Shown here: positions 3,164 through 18,402 of the stretch, one piece after another | Layout: each line of letters opens with the position of its first letter | Numbering within the stretch: position 1 is the stretch's first letter | From: Gemmatimonadota bacterium | GTDB taxonomy: Bacteria > 4572-55 > J002 | DNA: 64,000 nt | Reading direction: 5' to 3' | Assembly (NCBI GenBank): GCA_003697105.1 | Contig: RFFQ01000095.1 | Span: 16,878-80,877 of the forward strand | Program-made: the position numbers and the translations under genes | The notes under the pieces: model-generated | Told to the model about the DNA's origin: nothing | The model's database searches: none | What the model saw: only the letters and a program-made list of their open reading frames with translations

Positions 3164-6100
3164 TTAATCTCCTGACCCAAATAGAATCAGGTTTGCCCAA
3201 TAACTGGGATGCGGAAATCGTTCCCGAATCATGGATTGGGCGGCGTTTAGGGCGTCTTCCGTCGTGTTACCGGGTAATGCCCGTAAGTATCGTTTGATGG
3301 CAATCGCTGTCGATAAATTATCGGACCGCCAAAGCGCGCCGACAACCGTTGGTGCCCCGCTCAAAAGAAATGCGGTGGGGATGCCCAGTGGAACGATGGC
3401 GGAAACGGTATCGGGTAAATCCAACAAACCCCCACTAATAGTAATGTGTTTTAGTCGATGTTCCAAGTCTAAAATGGAATAAACCGCCAATTGATGGTCT
3501 CCCCATGTGATATGATGGTACAATGGATTTGCGGGTGTGGTTTCCAGTGGGCATGAAAATAAGGCTTGGTTTGCTGTCACCAACATCGAATCCACCCGCC
3601 CGCGTTGGATGTTCATTTCGGTTTGCAATATTACCCCCGGTACTAGCCGCTTTGCGCTGATCGCTTCTTTTGCCATCAAGGGTTCGGTAATAGAACTCAG
3701 GACGACCATTCGATTTGCAACGGATGCAGACGCCGGTGGTAACGGTATGGCAAACATGGCGGAAGGGGCATACCGGAGCCGGTGGGTATCCATTAGATAC
3801 GAGTCTGGAGCCGGTTTTAAAGCCCCAAATGATAGTGACGCCAGTACCCGATCCGGTACGATACACCAGCGGGCATATTGTTGCACGTGATCTTCTACCG
3901 GTGCAATTAGGGCGGTGTATAAGGCAAGTGCCGTTTGAGCGGTATCCATTACGTAATAAAGTTGCCGCTGATATTCTGCCACCTGACCGGCTAACTGTTC
4001 GGGATGGATGTGTAGCGGAACGGCACGAACCGCCTGAGCCGAAATCACCCAAACCCAAACCTCGGATGCCATCCAGAAATAGTCCAGCACAACTGTGTCT
4101 TTCGGGAGATGGGCTTGGACCCGCTGAAGGTCAATTGCCGCCGTGGAAACCATCAAGGATGCGCGGGGCTGATCCGTGACAAGATGCTGGATTTCACGGG
4201 CGATCTTCCGGGACTGCTCCCCAAGCTGGTGTTGCAACTGCTCCGGCAAGGCAATCCCTTGTTTTTGGTAAAGCCGCGCCTGCTGAATATGGCTTTGATA
4301 TGCCGATTTCAAAGATCGATACGCTTTCAGCTCCGAGCGTTGCCCCGGAAATGGGCTGATCCATTTCAGATAATCCCACCATTTTGCCCGGGCAGCAACT
4401 TCCCATGCCGCTTCAGGTTTATTCTGTGCCAATAGCAACCGCACCAATGATTCATATATCTCCCGCTCTGGAATGAAAAAACCATACTCCAAAGCAAACG
4501 CGCGTGAATCTGACCGCTCTATATAGTCCAGGGCGCGACGATAGTACACCACGGCAGAATCTACGTGCCCTGTATGCGCCATGTTGGCGGCAATCACCGC
4601 TAGAATTCGTCCTTCCAATTCCGGTAGAATTGCTTGGTGGGCATGTTGCCAAGCGTTTTGGAGAAGGGAATCTGCTTGTTCTATTTGCTGTTCTTGGTAA
4701 GCGATCTCCCCCAGTCGCAATTCCACGGCACTTTGCAAGACCGGATCGGGTGTACCGGCAAGCCACGCCAACGCGGTATCTAAATGCGTTTTTGCACGAG
4801 CAACCTGAGCCGCCTGTAAACAGGCAACCGCCAAATTATAATGACATTTTGCCCCATCAGGCAATGATTTAAATCCGTCGTTCGTTGCCAAAACCTCGGA
4901 AAAATAGAACTGGGCACGGGTGGGATGGTGTTCTTGGAGGTACATCAACCCGAGTTGGGATTTTAACATGATTATACCGTGCCCTTGAACCGGGTTCAGT
5001 TGGGCATGTTGCAGTGCTGTTTGCAACACCCTAAAACTTTGTTTTGATTTGCCCTGAAGCCACAAAATATGGCTTTTTAGCCGGGTGATCTCCCATGGGG
5101 TGGAGGGTGGCGCCGGATTCCCAGCACGGAGTTCGGCGCGTTCTACCCACTTCAGGGCTAAGGTGTAGTCACCGTATTCCAACGCGGCAGTGGCAATTTC
5201 TTGTGCGAGGGTCATTTGGAGGGGGGCGGTTCCCAATACACGTAAGTATTGATCTGCCTGCTGGAATGCCTCCAATGCGGAATCTGGGCGGGCAAGAGTG
5301 AGGTACAGCCTGCCGATCTGCCAGAACACGTGGGCAATTTCTACCGTATCTGCCAGTTGCTGGTAAATGGGTAACGCTTGCCGGTAGCTTGCCAGTGCCG
5401 CCGCCACGTTGATTTGCCGGAATGCAAGATCACCCCGAAGCCGGAGCACTTTTGCCAACACATCCGGACGGTTGTGTTGTTGGCTGTACTGCTGGGCGTC
5501 ATCCAGATGTTGCTTTGCTGGATCATATGCTTCCAGTTCTATTTCCAACTCGGCAAGGGTCGTGTATGCTAGTGGGAAGTGGTCGCTGAGTTGTTTCTCG
5601 TGTAAAAATGCCACGTAACGTTCCTGATAGCGTAATGCCAATTTGGGTTGTTGGGCGGCGCGTAAACAGCGGACTAACATCCGGTGTGCCTGTGTGATGT
5701 TCTCTATGGGAGTTGTCCGGTCTTTCTGGAGACGGGTTAATTGTTTTTGCTGGGTGGTTGCCGCCTGCCGGTAGTCACCATTCTCATATAATGCCTGGAC
5801 CAACTCGTTGTAAATGGGCGAGATGCGCTGTGGCGCCGCATATTCTGCGAGGCGTAAAGCGGTTTCTAGGGCATGGATGGCACGTTCCCACTGGCCAGCG
5901 TTCCGGTAATGCAATGCTTGTTGGTAGGACTGTTCCAATTGCTGGCGGGCAACTTTTTGTAACGATTGTGCCGGGAGACCCGGAAATCCCCATAGCCGAA
6001 ACCCAGCCCACTCCCGGACGGTTTGCTGGCGTTGAATTGCTTCGATCTGGGTTTGTTGTAACGCACCGGCAATGGTGTTTTGTGCCTGCTGGTACTCATA

Positions 6101-9100
6101 TAGATGTCCAAGTAGAGCGATTCGTGCCGCCGGTTCGATCTCCCATTGGGAAACCAGCACCGACGATACTCCCGCAAAGAGTAGCGCACGTTCCAATGCG
6201 ACCATCACGGGTTCTTCGGCGTCCGGATCCGCATCCGGCATGTTCCAACCACTGATTGTTACCAAATTTGCCTGAAGCGGTATCTCAAACCATTCAAAGA
6301 GCGACATCGTTTGATTGTATGCTAAATAGAGGGGTGTGCGCAGTGGCAGTTGCGGTCGCGGCGAGGCTCTCAATGCCAAATGCACCAGCCCGTAATCCGG
6401 TAGCATCCGTCGGAGCGTTGCTGGCGAGAGCGAATCTCCCTCCAATAGATACGGTTGCGGTAACGAGAAGACCAATTCACCCACTTCAGTCAGAGACCCT
6501 GCTAGGGTAAATGCCGTCCGGCGTTCTTCTGTTGCGACTAAAAGGGTATTCATGGCGGGGAGATACTGCTGTTGCTGTGCCACCAGCACACTGCTCAAGC
6601 TGGAGGCGTACGTCACACGGTGATCTTCAATCACATAACGCCCATTGTGCCGCAATGCCGCAAACGGGATGGCGTACAGCATTTTATCCGGCAAGATGGT
6701 CCACTCCGAATAGGTCGCTAATTCTGATGTAACAGGTTGTAATATCGCATCATACACCCATTCTAAAAAGATGTTCAGCGAATCCAGATTGTGGGATAGC
6801 TGGTCGTGTAAGGTGTGGGTCAAGGATGCCAACTGGGTGGTGGAGAGCGGCAGGCGAGCGGATACAATTCGATTTTTGGAAATAACCCAGACCACCGATT
6901 GGTTGTATCCCACATGATAAGCAATCAGGGCTTGGGTGGCGGTTAGCTGTTGTTGGATATTATCAATTGCCGGCGGGTTGACTCGAAATAGATCATACAC
7001 CGCGGTGTCCGCTAAGGTGAGTGCGCTGAGTTCCGCTTCTGCCCGCTCCCGTTGGAGATGGTACTGTTGGCGTTCCTGTTTCTGTTCCGGAAGCAATGTT
7101 TGCATGTGATAACGTATATTGACGATCTGCCGTCCCAATTGAAGTGCTCTATTTTCCGTGCTATCTGGCAGATTGAGGCGCTGGTTGCCGCTTATGTCGA
7201 TCAGTTGGTGTGCCCGTTGGCGTTCCTTTACGATGAGTGCGGCTCGTACTCGATTCTGTGCCATCAAGGTGGCAATGGTTTCGGCATACACGCCCTCCTG
7301 ATCCGCGGGGTTGGTCGGGATGGTTGGGGGCAGTGCTTCCACTATATCCAATGCCTGATAGAGCAATTTGAGCCGTTCATCCGCCGCTTGCGTGACCTGA
7401 GCTTGAATGTACAGCACTTGCCATAGCAGTTCCGGTAAACCGTGCGTTGCGGCTAATGACCGGGCGGAATTGGGACCAACACTCAGGTACGATAGCGCTG
7501 TTGCCGTATCTCCCTGAGCCAAATAGACCAGTGCCACATTTTTGCGGATCAGGGCACGCTCCCGGGGATGATCATACCGGAATGAGAGCCGATCTGCCTG
7601 AAGATAATAGGCTAGGGCTTGTTGGTAAAAGGTGTCAAAAATGGTGGAGGTGGCTTGTTGGTTAAGATACGTTGTCAGGTCGGAGTCTAACCCCAAATCA
7701 TAGCCGGTCTGTTGTTTCAGGTCGGTTAGATAGCGGCGAATCACCTCTTGACTGGATTTTATCTGATTTTGGCGCTCGATGTCATCCGTGGCTTTCTCGC
7801 CCGGCAACCGTGGGTCCAATTGATTGCGGTAGAGGGCGAAATAAATACTGGCGAGTTGGTGATAAATCGCCAACTCCATCCGTTGGTCTTCAACAGTGAA
7901 TACCGGACGCTCTGCTTTTCGCCGTTGGATTAATTCCAATGCCTGTGTTTGGTAATGTAATGCTTTGCGCCCGCGCCACACCGGTACCGGTTTCCGGTTC
8001 GGGGAGGTACTGGCAGACCGGTCTAGCATTGCGAGATACACTTGCCCTAAATTTTGATAATTGATTAATGCGCCTACCTGAAAATCATGTTTTGGGTCGC
8101 GGCATATTTGAAGGGAATTCTCAAAATGAAACAGAGCTTCGTCTTCATTTTTAAGCTGTAAGTAGATGTTTCCCAGATTATTATAACAGATTGCGCGCTC
8201 TTGCGCATTTCCGCTCATCTCCAAAATCTCTAATCTTTTCTGTGTGAAGTCACGTGCGCGTTCATAATCTTGTAGTTGATAGTAGCTTTCCGCTAGGATG
8301 CTGTAGACCAATGTGATTTCGTCACTGGGTGAGAACGGTTTTTGTCCGCGAGATTCGCCAATGGTGGTGGGGATTCGCACAAATGGCATGGCAAAAGTGA
8401 GCAACCGGAGATTATAGGGGACGATTTGAAGGGGAGCAAGTTGGGTGCGCTCCCGGCGGAAGTCCTGATGTTGCCACTCGTGTTCGGCTCGTTTTGCCCA
8501 GTAGATGGCGGAGTCATAGTTGCCCATGTGGAGGGCATTCGTGGCAATTTGCCGGAAACATAATCGTTGGAGGTGCTGTCGTTCTTCTGCCGGAAGTTCA
8601 ACGTCATCCAGTTGGTGTAATGCCCGTTGGATATAACGGGAAGATGCCGGATAATCTTTGGCGACATAGTACAGTGCCCCCAGTTGTTGGTAAGCCTCAT
8701 ATACCAACGCCGAATCCCGTTGGAGACGAGCGAGTTCAATCAGGCGGTGAAATGCCCGGTTGCCCGCCGAAACGTCTTCCAAAAAGAAGGCACACCGCCC
8801 CATTCGCCGCTGGATTTCGATCTCCTGTGATACGGATTGGAACGTCGAATCCATTTCTATTTTTTGTTGGTAGTAGTAATATGCTTTTTGGAAGCTGGTT
8901 TCATCTCCGTTATCGGCGAGATGGTAGAAGGTATTTGCCAAGTTGAGGAGCAACGCGGCTTCCCATTGTGGAAACTGCTGTTCATCGTTGAGTGTGAGCG
9001 CAATTTGATATTTCTCGATAGCCAGTTCATAGAGGAATTCCCGTTCATCCGGTTCAATGCGGTTTTCGCGGCGTTGCTGTTCGTAATCTTTTCGCAAACC

Positions 9101-11476
9101 TTCGTACACGTATCCCAATGCCAGATAGGTATCAATTTGGCGAAAATCCAGATCGAGTGCTGTTTCCAATGCCGGTCGTGCCGCGGCAAGTTGCTGCATA
9201 TTTGAGGTCTGATGGAATTGTTCGATTCGGGCGAATCCGGCGGCGTAATGGTAGGTGGCTTCATGTGAAAATTCGGTGCGGAGCGAGTCATAATGGGCAA
9301 TAATGGCGGGTAGTTGGTGGTGTTGGCTGCGAATCCAACCGCGATGTGCCGCCCAATGGAGTGAATCTTGTTGGAGTGCTTGTTGAAAAAAGGCGGCTGC
9401 GGCTGCCGGTTGGTGTTGGTCCAAAGCATTTTGTCCCTGATTGAGGTAGGTTTGTACCAAATGTTCGCGGGCACGTTGACCCACGGTGCCGTTTTCATAC
9501 CGTCCGTACTCCTGAATGATGAGTTTATAGAGGGCTTCGGTGCGATCATCGCCGGTGTGACTATAGATACGACCCATCGCGAACAGCGCCTGAATCTGCC
9601 AGTCATGTTCGTTGGGGTATTGCTGGATGAGTTGCTCGTATGCGGAAAGCGCCGCATCGTACTGCTGTTGTTGCTCATAAATTGTGCCGATCTGGAATTG
9701 TGCGCGGGCACACAAGGAGGTATAAAAGGGATAGGATTGGATGATTTGATAAAATCCGGTCAGTTGGTCCATTGGATTGTCATATGCGGTATAAAAGGCG
9801 ATAATGCGCTTTTCAGCCACTGCCGTCCATTTTTCTGAGGTGAAATAGGTCTCCAGTATGTGCAAGTAGCGTTCGATTCCACTGCCACGGTCTCCCAATT
9901 GGGTATAAATATCGGCAATTTTAAGGTTCGCTTCCGCGGCACTATCGTATTGGCGTGGGAACTGATCCACCACATGCTGGTATTGCTCCAGCGCCCGGGA
10001 ATTTTCACCTACTACGTGATGTAAATCCCCCATTGCCAGATAGATACGAGCTAATGCCCATTCATTTTGCTGGTGTTCTTCTAGTAATCTTTGGTATGCC
10101 TTCTGAGCAGCAACAGCGTTATGTTGATGCTTCCATTGTGCTTGGATGTAGGCAATTTGAATCAACGGTTTAAGAGGTGTTTCCGGGTAGTTTTGCAATG
10201 CCGTTTGATATGTGTCGAGTGCTAGGCGTTGTTGGTCGGTTTTTTCGTACAATTGCCCTAACTGGTAGAAGGCTTCGGCGGCGTATGGACTTGCCGGAAA
10301 ATTATCAATGACGCGATGATACGCCAACATAGCGGTAGTGGCAGACCGGTTATTTCTGATCCAGTGGGCATATCGTAATTGGAACTCCGCGGAAGGGGCG
10401 ATGGGAACTTCCCCGAAGGCAGGCATTTGCCAAATATCCATATTTCCACTGCGGTTGGTGGCGAAGTAGATTGAGCGACCATCCGGGCTCCACACGGGTT
10501 GGTAATTGATGTACTCATGCGTGGTCAGAGGTATGACCCGGCGGGTTGAAAGATCGATCCGGTATAGCCCGGGGTTATCAGCGAGTGTGACATGCCCATC
10601 ACCATTTGTATCTTGATGGTAACGGGCAAAGACGATCTGTTGCCCATCGGGACTCCAAGCGGGCGTGAGGTCATAATCCGAACCGCTGGTTAATTGTACC
10701 AGTGAATCCCCATTGGCGGAAATTAACCACAAGTCGCCGTTATTATCCGGTTTACCCCGAAAAGAGACATGAGCAATCCACTTTCCATCCGGGCTCCAGC
10801 GGGGGGCAAAACCGCCATCTTGGGTGAGCGGCCGGGCATTTTCCCCTTTGGCAGTGCATAACCAGAGATTTCGTTGAGGTGGGGAGGTACTGGTTATGTG
10901 TCGTCGGGAAGTAAATACAATCTGATCTCCGCTGGGATGCCAATCTGGATCGGTATCCTCGCCATTAAAATGGGTCAGTTGGGTCGCGTGTTCATCTGTT
11001 TGGTCGAGATCATGGATGGGGATAGTCCACAGATCACCACCGGCATCCTTCCGCCGGGAGACATACACCAATTGTTCCTTTTTTGGATGCCATGCCGGTT
11101 CGACATCGGCACTGGTATGGCGGGTCAATTGGCTGGGGCGGCTGCCGTTTACGGCCCGTTTCCACAAATTCCAGTTGGCATTTTGATCGGCATCGGTTCG
11201 CCCGGAAACAAAGACCAACGTTTGCCCATCCGGGGAAATTGCCGGAAAGAGGTCTATATCGGTATTGGTGGTAATTTGCTGGGGCACTTGATTGCGGATG
11301 GACTCGAACCATTCTTCGTAACGGATTGATGCTTCCGATGCCGGGGCTATTGGCGGGGTCGATATGGGAAGCGGAAGGTGAGGGGTTACGCGGGAGCTTG
11401 TACACCCCCCACTAAATATGATGAGTAGAATCAGAGTAATATAACCGCCGGAAGGGCACCGTTGGGGGTATTGCAT
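3164..11476 (-). CDS. Giant lipoprotein: PD40 beta-propeller, TPR arrays and two CHAT-like domains
   Basis: A protein of 2770 residues. A short hydrophobic signal ends in FSGGC (Cys25), so it is probably a lipoprotein exported to the envelope. Residues about 70-350 hold six or so TolB-like PD40 blades with repeated (I/W)SPDG..I.F motifs. Residues about 375-1500 and 1845-2440 are dense TPR repeats (YQLGQLYEKTDQ, YNNLGNIYLQ and similar). Two caspase-fold CHAT-like domains follow the TPR blocks, at about 1515-1840 and 2460-2770, recognised by WILPDKMLYAIPFAAL and WCIVPDRVLASLSFGAL. Both lack the catalytic pair: HLALRAS and TISGW replace the usual HxATHG and LSAC in the first, HITWGD and TISGG in the second. 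A scaffolding or sensing role is more likely than peptidase activity. The start at 11476 has only a weak ribosome-binding site. Confidence 0.85.
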   Translation of the reverse strand: MQYPQRCPSGGYITLILLIIFSGGCTSSRVTPHLPLPISTPPIAPASEASIRYEEWFESIRNQVPQQITTNTDIDLFPAISPDGQTLVFVSGRTDADQNANWNLWKRAVNGSRPSQLTRHTSADVEPAWHPKKEQLVYVSRRKDAGGDLWTIPIHDLDQTDEHATQLTHFNGEDTDPDWHPSGDQIVFTSRRHITSTSPPQRNLWLCTAKGENARPLTQDGGFAPRWSPDGKWIAHVSFRGKPDNNGDLWLISANGDSLVQLTSGSDYDLTPAWSPDGQQIVFARYHQDTNGDGHVTLADNPGLYRIDLSTRRVIPLTTHEYINYQPVWSPDGRSIYFATNRSGNMDIWQMPAFGEVPIAPSAEFQLRYAHWIRNNRSATTAMLAYHRVIDNFPASPYAAEAFYQLGQLYEKTDQQRLALDTYQTALQNYPETPLKPLIQIAYIQAQWKHQHNAVAAQKAYQRLLEEHQQNEWALARIYLAMGDLHHVVGENSRALEQYQHVVDQFPRQYDSAAEANLKIADIYTQLGDRGSGIERYLHILETYFTSEKWTAVAEKRIIAFYTAYDNPMDQLTGFYQIIQSYPFYTSLCARAQFQIGTIYEQQQQYDAALSAYEQLIQQYPNEHDWQIQALFAMGRIYSHTGDDRTEALYKLIIQEYGRYENGTVGQRAREHLVQTYLNQGQNALDQHQPAAAAAFFQQALQQDSLHWAAHRGWIRSQHHQLPAIIAHYDSLRTEFSHEATYHYAAGFARIEQFHQTSNMQQLAAARPALETALDLDFRQIDTYLALGYVYEGLRKDYEQQRRENRIEPDEREFLYELAIEKYQIALTLNDEQQFPQWEAALLLNLANTFYHLADNGDETSFQKAYYYYQQKIEMDSTFQSVSQEIEIQRRMGRCAFFLEDVSAGNRAFHRLIELARLQRDSALVYEAYQQLGALYYVAKDYPASSRYIQRALHQLDDVELPAEERQHLQRLCFRQIATNALHMGNYDSAIYWAKRAEHEWQHQDFRRERTQLAPLQIVPYNLRLLTFAMPFVRIPTTIGESRGQKPFSPSDEITLVYSILAESYYQLQDYERARDFTQKRLEILEMSGNAQERAICYNNLGNIYLQLKNEDEALFHFENSLQICRDPKHDFQVGALINYQNLGQVYLAMLDRSASTSPNRKPVPVWRGRKALHYQTQALELIQRRKAERPVFTVEDQRMELAIYHQLASIYFALYRNQLDPRLPGEKATDDIERQNQIKSSQEVIRRYLTDLKQQTGYDLGLDSDLTTYLNQQATSTIFDTFYQQALAYYLQADRLSFRYDHPRERALIRKNVALVYLAQGDTATALSYLSVGPNSARSLAATHGLPELLWQVLYIQAQVTQAADERLKLLYQALDIVEALPPTIPTNPADQEGVYAETIATLMAQNRVRAALIVKERQRAHQLIDISGNQRLNLPDSTENRALQLGRQIVNIRYHMQTLLPEQKQERQQYHLQRERAEAELSALTLADTAVYDLFRVNPPAIDNIQQQLTATQALIAYHVGYNQSVVWVISKNRIVSARLPLSTTQLASLTHTLHDQLSHNLDSLNIFLEWVYDAILQPVTSELATYSEWTILPDKMLYAIPFAALRHNGRYVIEDHRVTYASSLSSVLVAQQQQYLPAMNTLLVATEERRTAFTLAGSLTEVGELVFSLPQPYLLEGDSLSPATLRRMLPDYGLVHLALRASPRPQLPLRTPLYLAYNQTMSLFEWFEIPLQANLVTISGWNMPDADPDAEEPVMVALERALLFAGVSSVLVSQWEIEPAARIALLGHLYEYQQAQNTIAGALQQTQIEAIQRQQTVREWAGFRLWGFPGLPAQSLQKVARQQLEQSYQQALHYRNAGQWERAIHALETALRLAEYAAPQRISPIYNELVQALYENGDYRQAATTQQKQLTRLQKDRTTPIENITQAHRMLVRCLRAAQQPKLALRYQERYVAFLHEKQLSDHFPLAYTTLAELEIELEAYDPAKQHLDDAQQYSQQHNRPDVLAKVLRLRGDLAFRQINVAAALASYRQALPIYQQLADTVEIAHVFWQIGRLYLTLARPDSALEAFQQADQYLRVLGTAPLQMTLAQEIATAALEYGDYTLALKWVERAELRAGNPAPPSTPWEITRLKSHILWLQGKSKQSFRVLQTALQHAQLNPVQGHGIIMLKSQLGLMYLQEHHPTRAQFYFSEVLATNDGFKSLPDGAKCHYNLAVACLQAAQVARAKTHLDTALAWLAGTPDPVLQSAVELRLGEIAYQEQQIEQADSLLQNAWQHAHQAILPELEGRILAVIAANMAHTGHVDSAVVYYRRALDYIERSDSRAFALEYGFFIPEREIYESLVRLLLAQNKPEAAWEVAARAKWWDYLKWISPFPGQRSELKAYRSLKSAYQSHIQQARLYQKQGIALPEQLQHQLGEQSRKIAREIQHLVTDQPRASLMVSTAAIDLQRVQAHLPKDTVVLDYFWMASEVWVWVISAQAVRAVPLHIHPEQLAGQVAEYQRQLYYVMDTAQTALALYTALIAPVEDHVQQYARWCIVPDRVLASLSFGALKPAPDSYLMDTHRLRYAPSAMFAIPLPPASASVANRMVVLSSITEPLMAKEAISAKRLVPGVILQTEMNIQRGRVDSMLVTANQALFSCPLETTPANPLYHHITWGDHQLAVYSILDLEHRLKHITISGGLLDLPDTVSAIVPLGIPTAFLLSGAPTVVGALWRSDNLSTAIAIKRYLRALPGNTTEDALNAAQSMIRERFPHPSYWANLILFGSGD

Positions 11477-11485
11477 GGAACACTT

Positions 11486-11935
11486 TTACTGGTTTGGGGA
11501 AGGATAAATATAGATACCCACTGTATCCTTCACGTTTGGATCGGTATCCCACCAGCCTTCTACGATGGCTTTCACACCTTGTACCGGGGGGTTCGTTTGA
11601 AATCCACTGAACGTAACGGATGTTTGTCCGGTATTATCAGTGACACCAAAGGCTTGAATTTCACCTATATCGGTGCGGAAAATCACGGTTTCTCCGCTCA
11701 AAGCCTGATTATCTCCGTCACGCAGGGTGGCGAAGACCTCCGCATAGACTGAATCCCCACCGGCATCGTAAACTGTGGTTGGCGTAGCGGTCAAGGTTAA
11801 TTTTGCTGGCGACGTATCCCGATTTTCGCACCCGGTTAGGAGCACGAGAAGGCTCAACTGAACAAAGATACAAACGCTGATGATGGGGGAGACTCCCTTT
11901 GAGACCTTTAGGGCTTTTTTGTCATTAAAACTCAT
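11486..11935 (-). CDS. Small lipoprotein with a bacterial Ig-like (Big-1/invasin-type) domain
   Basis: 149 residues from the ATG at 11935. A type II signal peptide ends in the lipobox LLTGC. The rest forms one Ig-like domain of the invasin/Big-1 kind: LTLTATPTTVYDAGGDSVYAEVFATL, then ALSGETVIFRTDIGEI and TDNTGQTSVTFSG, the typical A-xx-ADG/NG pattern of this fold. It should be anchored in the outer or inner membrane and exposed to the periplasm or surface; binding partners are unknown. A GTG at 11941 is also in frame, but the AAGGAG motif lies at a proper distance only from the ATG. The next gene downstream, after 9 bp, is the giant CHAT lipoprotein, so the pair is probably one operon. Confidence 0.72.
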   Translation of the reverse strand: MSFNDKKALKVSKGVSPIISVCIFVQLSLLVLLTGCENRDTSPAKLTLTATPTTVYDAGGDSVYAEVFATLRDGDNQALSGETVIFRTDIGEIQAFGVTDNTGQTSVTFSGFQTNPPVQGVKAIVEGWWDTDPNVKDTVGIYIYPSPNQ

Positions 11936-12089
11936 ACTCACACTCCTTTCCGAGAGAAGAATTAAACATCATGTTGCTTTTTTTGACCTTATTTCCGGAG
12001 TAGTCCTGAGATGCTCTGGCAGTAAAATATAGATATAGCCTTGATTTTAGGAGGTTGATGAACATCGGCATTAAATCTGCTGAAGACAT
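11925..12089 (-). CDS. Possible small ORF overlapping the lipoprotein start
   Basis: A 54-codon frame beginning MSSADLMPMFINLLKSRLYL with a strong AAGGAG site four bases before the ATG. Its stop codon overlaps the first 11 bases of the lipoprotein gene, an arrangement usual for translational coupling. The peptide has no recognisable domain; the first 25 residues could form a hydrophobic or amphipathic helix. It may be a real small protein, a coupling leader, or chance. No homologue is known to me. Confidence 0.3.
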   Translation of the reverse strand: MSSADLMPMFINLLKSRLYLYFTARASQDYSGNKVKKSNMMFNSSLGKECEYEF

Positions 12090-18206: not shown

Positions 18207-18402
18207 TAAAAACCCCGCTATCTCGTGTGACTCAAAGTAACATTGAACCCAAACTTTAGATACGGTGGTTTGTCCGTATGGTAAATTAATGCGTCCCCTA
18301 AACCTCTACGAGGGGGGCGTGCACGCTTTTACCAGTTAGGATTCCCTAGTGTTTAATGTTAGCTCAAGTACCTTCAAATCATCACGAAGACAGCGGGGAA
18401 TC
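18207..18402 (-). ncRNA. ssrS: 6S RNA
   Basis: The 316-bp gap between zapA and rny holds an RNA of about 190 nt. A perfect closing stem joins CCCCGCTGTCT (18388-18398) to AGATAGCGGGG (18213-18223), with one G-U pair. The 3' arm runs into TTTTTATT, as in an intrinsic terminator. Inside is a terminal stem (TGGTAAA with TTTACCA, then GCGT with ACGC and a C/G-rich tip), separated by a large, mostly unpaired middle region, matching the 6S layout of closing stem, central bubble and apical stem. Neighbourhood with zapA is a known mark of 6S RNA in many phyla. 6S RNA binds the housekeeping sigma-factor holoenzyme and lowers transcription in stationary phase. It probably has its own promoter. Confidence 0.82.

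Follow-up and report, generated by a model that had tools for sequence, protein, structure and literature searches.

A giant predicted lipoprotein whose two CHAT domains lack the catalytic dyad, and its widespread family of exported PD40-TPR-CHAT proteins

Locus and domain layout

The window (the whole stretch of DNA analysed, 64,000 nt) carries on its minus strand, at 3164-11476, an intact open reading frame of 2770 codons which starts with ATG and contains no internal stop. It fills 13% of the window, a proportion already given in an earlier sequence-only reading of this DNA and borne out by the coordinates, and its third-position GC is close to that of the neighbouring genes. The product is a giant protein of 2770 aa with the domain order PD40-TPR-CHAT1-TPR-CHAT2, a layout supported by Pfam and by colinear homologues of 2300-2950 aa. 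Pfam detected six PD40 stretches (residues ~70-357), numerous TPRs and, in two stretches, PF12770 (CHAT; E=5.9e-47, 160.9 bits against a curated cut-off of 24).

The N-terminus, YITLILLIIFSGGC25, has a hydrophobic core and matches a PROSITE-style lipobox pattern (FSGGC25), with Cys25 at the lipobox end; residues 1-25 (11402-11476) are predicted by pattern only as a signal peptide with lipobox. They are followed by a PD40/TolB-like propeller (residues 58-357, 10406-11305; PF07676, E=8.9e-46, six stretches), TPR block A (residues ~380-1530, 6887-10339), which matches Pfam TPR families and shows weak YbgF/CpoB similarity, CHAT1 (residues 1539-1830, 5987-6862), TPR block B (residues ~1850-2340, 4457-5929), also recognised by Pfam TPR families and with a mean majority-residue frequency of 44% in the family, and CHAT2 (residues 2484-2768, 3173-4027), all on the minus strand. 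The earlier description of an exported lipoprotein with two CHAT domains after TPR blocks agrees with this layout.

By NCBIfam, the N-terminal propeller is similar to TolB and the TPR stretches to YbgF/CpoB, both of the Tol-Pal system. Both similarities fall below the model cut-offs (159.5 bits against 343.15 for TolB, TIGR02800; cut-off 90.1 for YbgF) and, in contrast to Tol-Pal, the giant fuses propeller and TPRs with CHAT domains in one protein. Elsewhere, a 6S RNA (RF00013, 61.5 bits) at 18208-18402 (minus strand) is the sole Rfam match within the window.

Predicted folds and active sites of the two CHAT domains

AlphaFold2 models of both domains drew on alignments of public-genome homologues. 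The CHAT1 model (pLDDT 92.3, pTM 0.92) best matched Csx29 (8eex_B, Z 32.4, rmsd 2.8 over 342 residues) and the CHAT2 model (pLDDT 84.1, pTM 0.86) best matched TPR-CHAT (7y84_C, Z 33.0, rmsd 3.6 over 378 residues). Separase (5u1s_A) came at Z 27.3 and 27.9 for CHAT1 and CHAT2, respectively, a fold match from which we do not claim membership, and DdvA (8rw5/8rot) followed at Z 22-23 for both. The structure prediction and comparison with TPR-CHAT/Csx29 and separase proposed from the sequence alone gave complete CHAT folds, with Z above 30 and about 27. CHAT1 is placed by fold, because a PDB sequence search with its alignment as query returned mostly PPR/TPR-like and coiled-coil matches. The CHAT profile scored 115 bits on CHAT1 and 110 bits on CHAT2, and on these models both domains remain CHAT (PF12770) by fold.

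Active-site positions were read from a profile built on C-terminal CHAT domains, together with the family alignment; site assignment relies on sequence alignment and the intact predicted fold rather than on residue-level superposition. At the catalytic positions of CHAT1, His is replaced by Arg1703 (HLALRAS; codon 6368-6370) and Cys by Trp1744 (ISGW; codon 6245-6247). In CHAT2, Pro2643 (codon 3548-3550) replaces His and Gly2683 (ISGG; codon 3428-3430) replaces Cys, all four codons being on the minus strand. Pro2643 sits in 'FSCPLETTPANPL', whose aligned counterpart is 'ATHGEFDPVNPL', and the segment 'SCPLETTPANPL', immediately ahead of HITWGD, pairs with 'THGEFDPVNPL' in the homologue alignment. 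Three of the motifs picked out by the sequence-only reading (HLALRAS, TISGW, TISGG) are correctly placed; the fourth, HITWGD (from residue 2655), had been taken for the CHAT2 His motif and is mis-registered, lying by alignment ~12 residues beyond the real His position at Pro2643.

The central point of that reading, that both residues are gone from both CHATs, is confirmed by the profile and the family alignment. Neither domain carries the signature of CHAT cysteine proteases (HxxTHG for His, LSAC for Cys). We also looked at the sequence level for other Cys or His residues at the active-site positions, and no substitute was found: the CHAT1 region (1385-1850) contains no cysteine, and the only two cysteines of CHAT2, C2538 and C2642, both lie off the nucleophile site. 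The C2642 column, just before the His site, holds Cys in 26 of the 85 family rows (e.g. SCHGE, ACHGE); C2642 is not regarded as a new active site because in relatives this Cys stands beside a normal dyad. By alignment, then, both dyads are absent from the window protein.

TPR-CHAT has a His585/Cys627 dyad and is inactive once the Cys is mutated to Ala or Ser (PMC9729208). Csx29/TPR-CHAT, the protease of the type III-E CRISPR system (Craspase), shares with the giant a TPR solenoid followed by CHAT and is the best fold match of both window CHATs. It differs in having one CHAT, an intact dyad and a CRISPR link, whereas the window giant carries two dyad-less CHATs, an export signal and a propeller, and the neighbouring genes examined include no CRISPR genes. 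The Csx29 model NF041237 had no match to the window protein at E<=1e-3, and G321 reached 48.2 bits against a cut-off of 300. Eukaryotic separase likewise combines helical repeats with a caspase-like protease fold; it is a cohesin protease with an intact dyad and no propeller, at ~10-12% identity to the window domains. DdvA is also a membrane-associated CHAT protein, but a transmembrane anti-sigma factor, as known here by PDB title.

A widespread family of giant CHAT proteins

A peptide-pattern search of genome contigs with the window protein alone recovered no relative, and an alignment query did. Three giants of matching domain order (G024, G052, G046) came out of the first search, which covered 60 genomes. 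A CHAT search in 386 genomes plus a collection scan brought the set to 80 named loci with full-length colinear homology, and ~20 further genomes carry full-length colinear homologues. The named loci come from KSB1, Calditrichota, LCP-89, FCPU426, Planctomycetota, Nitrospinota, Nitrospirota, Desulfobacterota, Geobacteraceae, deltaproteobacterial MAGs and Pseudomonadota. The window protein aligns over its whole length with 84 homologues (85 rows); full-length identity to the reference is about 25-28% in a 6-sequence alignment. It is, judged from this alignment, a divergent member of the giant family, colinear over its full length and with the same domain order.

Because the 80 loci come from a collection scan with C-terminal CHAT patterns, members with a degraded CHAT2 were under-sampled. 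Since such patterns miss a degraded CHAT2, an N-terminal profile was run on the same 386 genomes. It added four members with an intact CHAT2 (G356, G092, G082, G352), one with a dead CHAT2 (G288) and one whose sequence ends before the site (G270).

An N-terminal hydrophobic signal is present in 76 of 82 members, 11 of which have a lipobox by pattern. The envelope location, presented in the sequence-only reading as unusual next to cytoplasmic CHAT proteases, is thus supported as regards export, and is ordinary within the giant family. No paper describing these giants was found in the open literature searched, which is no proof that none exists; a widespread family of giant exported PD40-TPR-CHAT1-TPR-CHAT2 proteins has apparently not been described previously.

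Loss of the CHAT1 and CHAT2 dyads across the family

The two CHAT domains have very different records in the family. The CHAT1 dyad is absent in all 82 members that could be read, of which 2 have the His and none the Cys. In CHAT2, by contrast, both His and Cys are kept in 83 of the 83 other aligned CHAT2-bearing members, two of these rows being identical; the exceptions in the 85-row alignment are the window protein (P/G) and G046, where CHAT2 is missing altogether. The majority residue reaches a mean frequency of 32% in CHAT1 versus 59% in CHAT2. CHAT1 being dead family-wide and CHAT2 intact elsewhere, the loss in CHAT1 is ancestral and that in CHAT2 late. On these alignments, CHAT1 has been a pseudoprotease since the ancestor of the family, and strong constraint normally acts on CHAT2.

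Whether the loss is general, a question raised from the sequence alone, can therefore be answered differently for each domain: it is for CHAT1 and is not for CHAT2. An equivalent or family-wide loss in both domains was rejected, CHAT2 being intact elsewhere, and the notion of 'tandem pseudo-CHAT modules' as equivalents falls with it, since the CHAT2 loss is peculiar to the window lineage.

The member added by the N-terminal profile, G288, has LPAY in place of LSAC in its CHAT2 and no HxxxHG. Its replacements differ from those of the window protein; at least two lineages have therefore lost the CHAT2 dyad, and one more has lost the domain. The G288 loss is an independent parallel to that of the window. 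This double-dead giant (L173 and L183) seems to be divided between two contigs and has AsmA-DUF1318 immediately upstream. The G046 giant (L037/L083) is 1815 aa long and ends after a degenerate CHAT1; the AsmA-DUF1318-giant order is kept there, with a lon-like gene before it and two glgC-like genes downstream. As G288 and G046 both keep the operon without an intact CHAT2, the remainder of the protein can persist without the protease.

A FastTree tree placed the window protein next to the KSB1/Calditrichota/LCP-89 group with 97% local support, a position made unsure by long branches. Its own end branch, 1.89, is among the two longest in the family tree, and the window lineage is represented by this one sequence.

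DUF1318 and AsmA-like partner genes

Outside Nitrospinota, the usual gene order is an AsmA/DUF748-like gene, a gene for a DUF1318 (PF07027) lipoprotein of ~190 aa, and the giant. Among loci outside Nitrospinota with enough sequence, DUF1318 lies upstream of the giant in 48 of 58, and 38 of 49 upstream matches overlap or lie within 60 nt. An AsmA-like gene is found at 28 of 49 giant loci outside Nitrospinota, and these neighbours match the AsmA, DUF748 and YhdP Pfam models. At Nitrospinota giant loci, an adjacent DUF1318 was found in 0 of 20 and an AsmA-like gene in 0 of 18, and CHAT2 is intact there. The complete operon also occurs in cultured relatives, namely Citrifermentans bremense, Geomonas oryzae and G. 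edaphica (L160, L162, L163). Members L078, L079 and L081 (G252, G115, G380) form a divergent lipoprotein subgroup of ~2330 aa with a weak or undetectable propeller, and stand in the AsmA-DUF1318-giant operon like other members. Locus L186 (G150) also carries this operon; the 25,386-aa open frame seen there is an artefact of masked bases and not a real gene of such size.

A DUF1318 profile, A6, matched in 21 of 22 giant-bearing genomes. As most of the genes behind A6 are giant-linked, the co-occurrence test was repeated with the independent Pfam model PF07027, which matched in 20 of 22 giant-bearing genomes versus 29 of 364 without a giant (p=4e-18). With one vote per family the figures were 15/16 versus 22/242 (p=2e-13, deeper relatedness being uncorrected). 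DUF1318 is unlinked or on another contig in nine genomes (G000, G293, G133, G270, G352, G082, G092, G121, G258); because it co-occurs with the giant also where unlinked, the association is more than linkage alone. The link of AsmA-like genes to the giants rests on gene position.

The genome that contains the window (G000) has both partner genes, dispersed: the giant is on contig C165, DUF1318 on C83 (PF07027, 50.1 bits) and the AsmA-like gene on C12 (PF05170, 51.3 bits). The linkage of the three has been lost in this genome. Lost operon linkage as the cause of dyad loss was ruled out, since the Nitrospinota giants are unlinked yet intact. On C83, the DUF1318 lipoprotein gene (L166:9965-10540, minus strand) overlaps the next ORF, of 238 aa, after which comes a sucC-like gene. 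The place usually held by DUF1318, directly upstream of the giant, is occupied in the window by a gene at 11486-11941 (minus strand) with Big_1/Invasin_D3-like matches, both below cut-offs, and a small, exported-looking product.

E. coli has a PF07027 match, and we take its YdbL to be the protein that carries DUF1318. We know of no giant CHAT protein in the ydbH-ynbE-ydbL locus of E. coli. These three genes form one locus, and for the AsmA-type proteins YdbH, TamB and YhdP a role in phospholipid transport between the two membranes has been proposed (PMC8593681); YdbH acts with the lipoprotein YnbE (PMC11784454; PMC12977461). The usual neighbours of the giants, an AsmA-like protein and a DUF1318 lipoprotein, resemble this set. 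They differ in that the AsmA-like partner scores with AsmA/DUF748 and that the DUF1318 protein, of ~190 aa, is itself a lipoprotein, and the genes of the window genome are dispersed. The open literature searched contained almost nothing on DUF1318 and no paper that brings 'CHAT domain' and AsmA together.

Proposed function and alternative explanations

The propeller and TPR solenoids of ordinary members would probably bind periplasmic partners, CHAT1 would be a fixed pseudoprotease serving structure or regulation, and CHAT2 a regulated periplasmic cysteine protease. The giant would work, presumably through physical contact, with the DUF1318 lipoprotein and usually with the AsmA-like membrane-bridge protein; most likely it would assemble, sense or regulate the DUF1318/AsmA intermembrane system. 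We infer an outer-membrane location for the giant. A role in a lipid bridge is probable by analogy, being borrowed from the functions of E. coli YdbL and YdbH. One form of this idea is that the CHAT1/CHAT2 pair, an analogue of the separase/caspase type, controls an AsmA/DUF1318 lipid bridge by periplasmic proteolysis, some lineages, including that of the window, having turned to a non-catalytic scaffold; we advance it tentatively, at somewhat less than even chances.

For the window protein, we lean towards its being a dead giant of a widespread exported family, kept as a non-cutting scaffold or partner-binder tied to the DUF1318/AsmA system. With the CHAT2 dyad gone, it has probably become a non-cutting scaffold; this scaffold or partner-binding part would be what remains in the window lineage, from a gene set apart from those of its partners. 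A non-catalytic binding role in the envelope, suggested from the sequence alone, is thus plausible. The accompanying idea of envelope signalling has no direct evidence, and the genomic data favour a DUF1318 lipoprotein/AsmA-like system instead. Most CHAT proteases with a characterised structure are linked to CRISPR or defence. If the proposal is true, caspase-like proteolysis would be placed in the cell envelope and DUF1318 would gain a partner in the giant family across many phyla (at least six), while the window protein, G288 and G046 would be natural cases separating the protease from the remaining functions.

Several other explanations were weighed. The long end branch, the absence of both dyads and the separation from the usual partner genes could together mark a relict that left its operon, lost protease function and is drifting to a pseudogene. 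However, an intact frame of 8.3 kb, with no stop or frameshift, and complete modelled CHAT folds (pLDDT 92 and 84) indicate that the gene is not simply decaying; the CHAT profile still finds both domains, third-position GC is near that of the neighbours, and other long-branch members (G133, G380, L131) have an intact CHAT2, so that decay seems unlikely. Signalling from the envelope would be at work if the giant were a stress receptor for the periplasm that signalled inwards as the PDB title suggests for DdvA, to which both window CHATs are similar. TPR-CHAT and separase match them better than DdvA does, and no sigma factor is present among the neighbours examined. Past the signal peptide, moreover, a reading of the sequence gives no obvious transmembrane helix and no cytoplasmic domain, so the giant could not signal inwards alone, and we consider such a receptor very unlikely. 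That other residues took over catalysis is hardly credible: C2642 does adjoin the His position and S2681, a serine near the nucleophile loop, stands two residues ahead of the Cys position, but CHAT1 has no Cys to offer, His is missing from both His positions, every other row with Cys in the C2642 column has a normal dyad, and the Cys-to-Ala and Cys-to-Ser mutants of TPR-CHAT lost activity (PMC9729208).

The dead giant might also act in trans, binding and controlling an active CHAT of the same cell. Pseudoproteases of this kind have a model in cFLIP, which controls caspase-8. Among the CHATs found in the genome a single one has an intact dyad (HFATHG/LSACNT), on an exported-looking TPR protein encoded on C170, which would be a candidate target. 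Yet the two genes show no genomic link, and the C170 protein has no propeller and aligns weakly with the giant; we regard this regulation as distinctly unlikely, and retain the non-cutting scaffold or partner-binder as the preferred reading. The C170 gene (L041:2122-7542) encodes a TPR-CHAT protein of 1806 aa, and the gene downstream of it looks, by eye, like a sigma-54 activator. The same genome encodes on C36 (L042:4036-5160, minus strand) a stand-alone CHAT-family protein of 374 aa (39.7 bits), adjoined by a DNA-ligase-like gene; its dyad is absent by eye (HFDGPG, LTTP).
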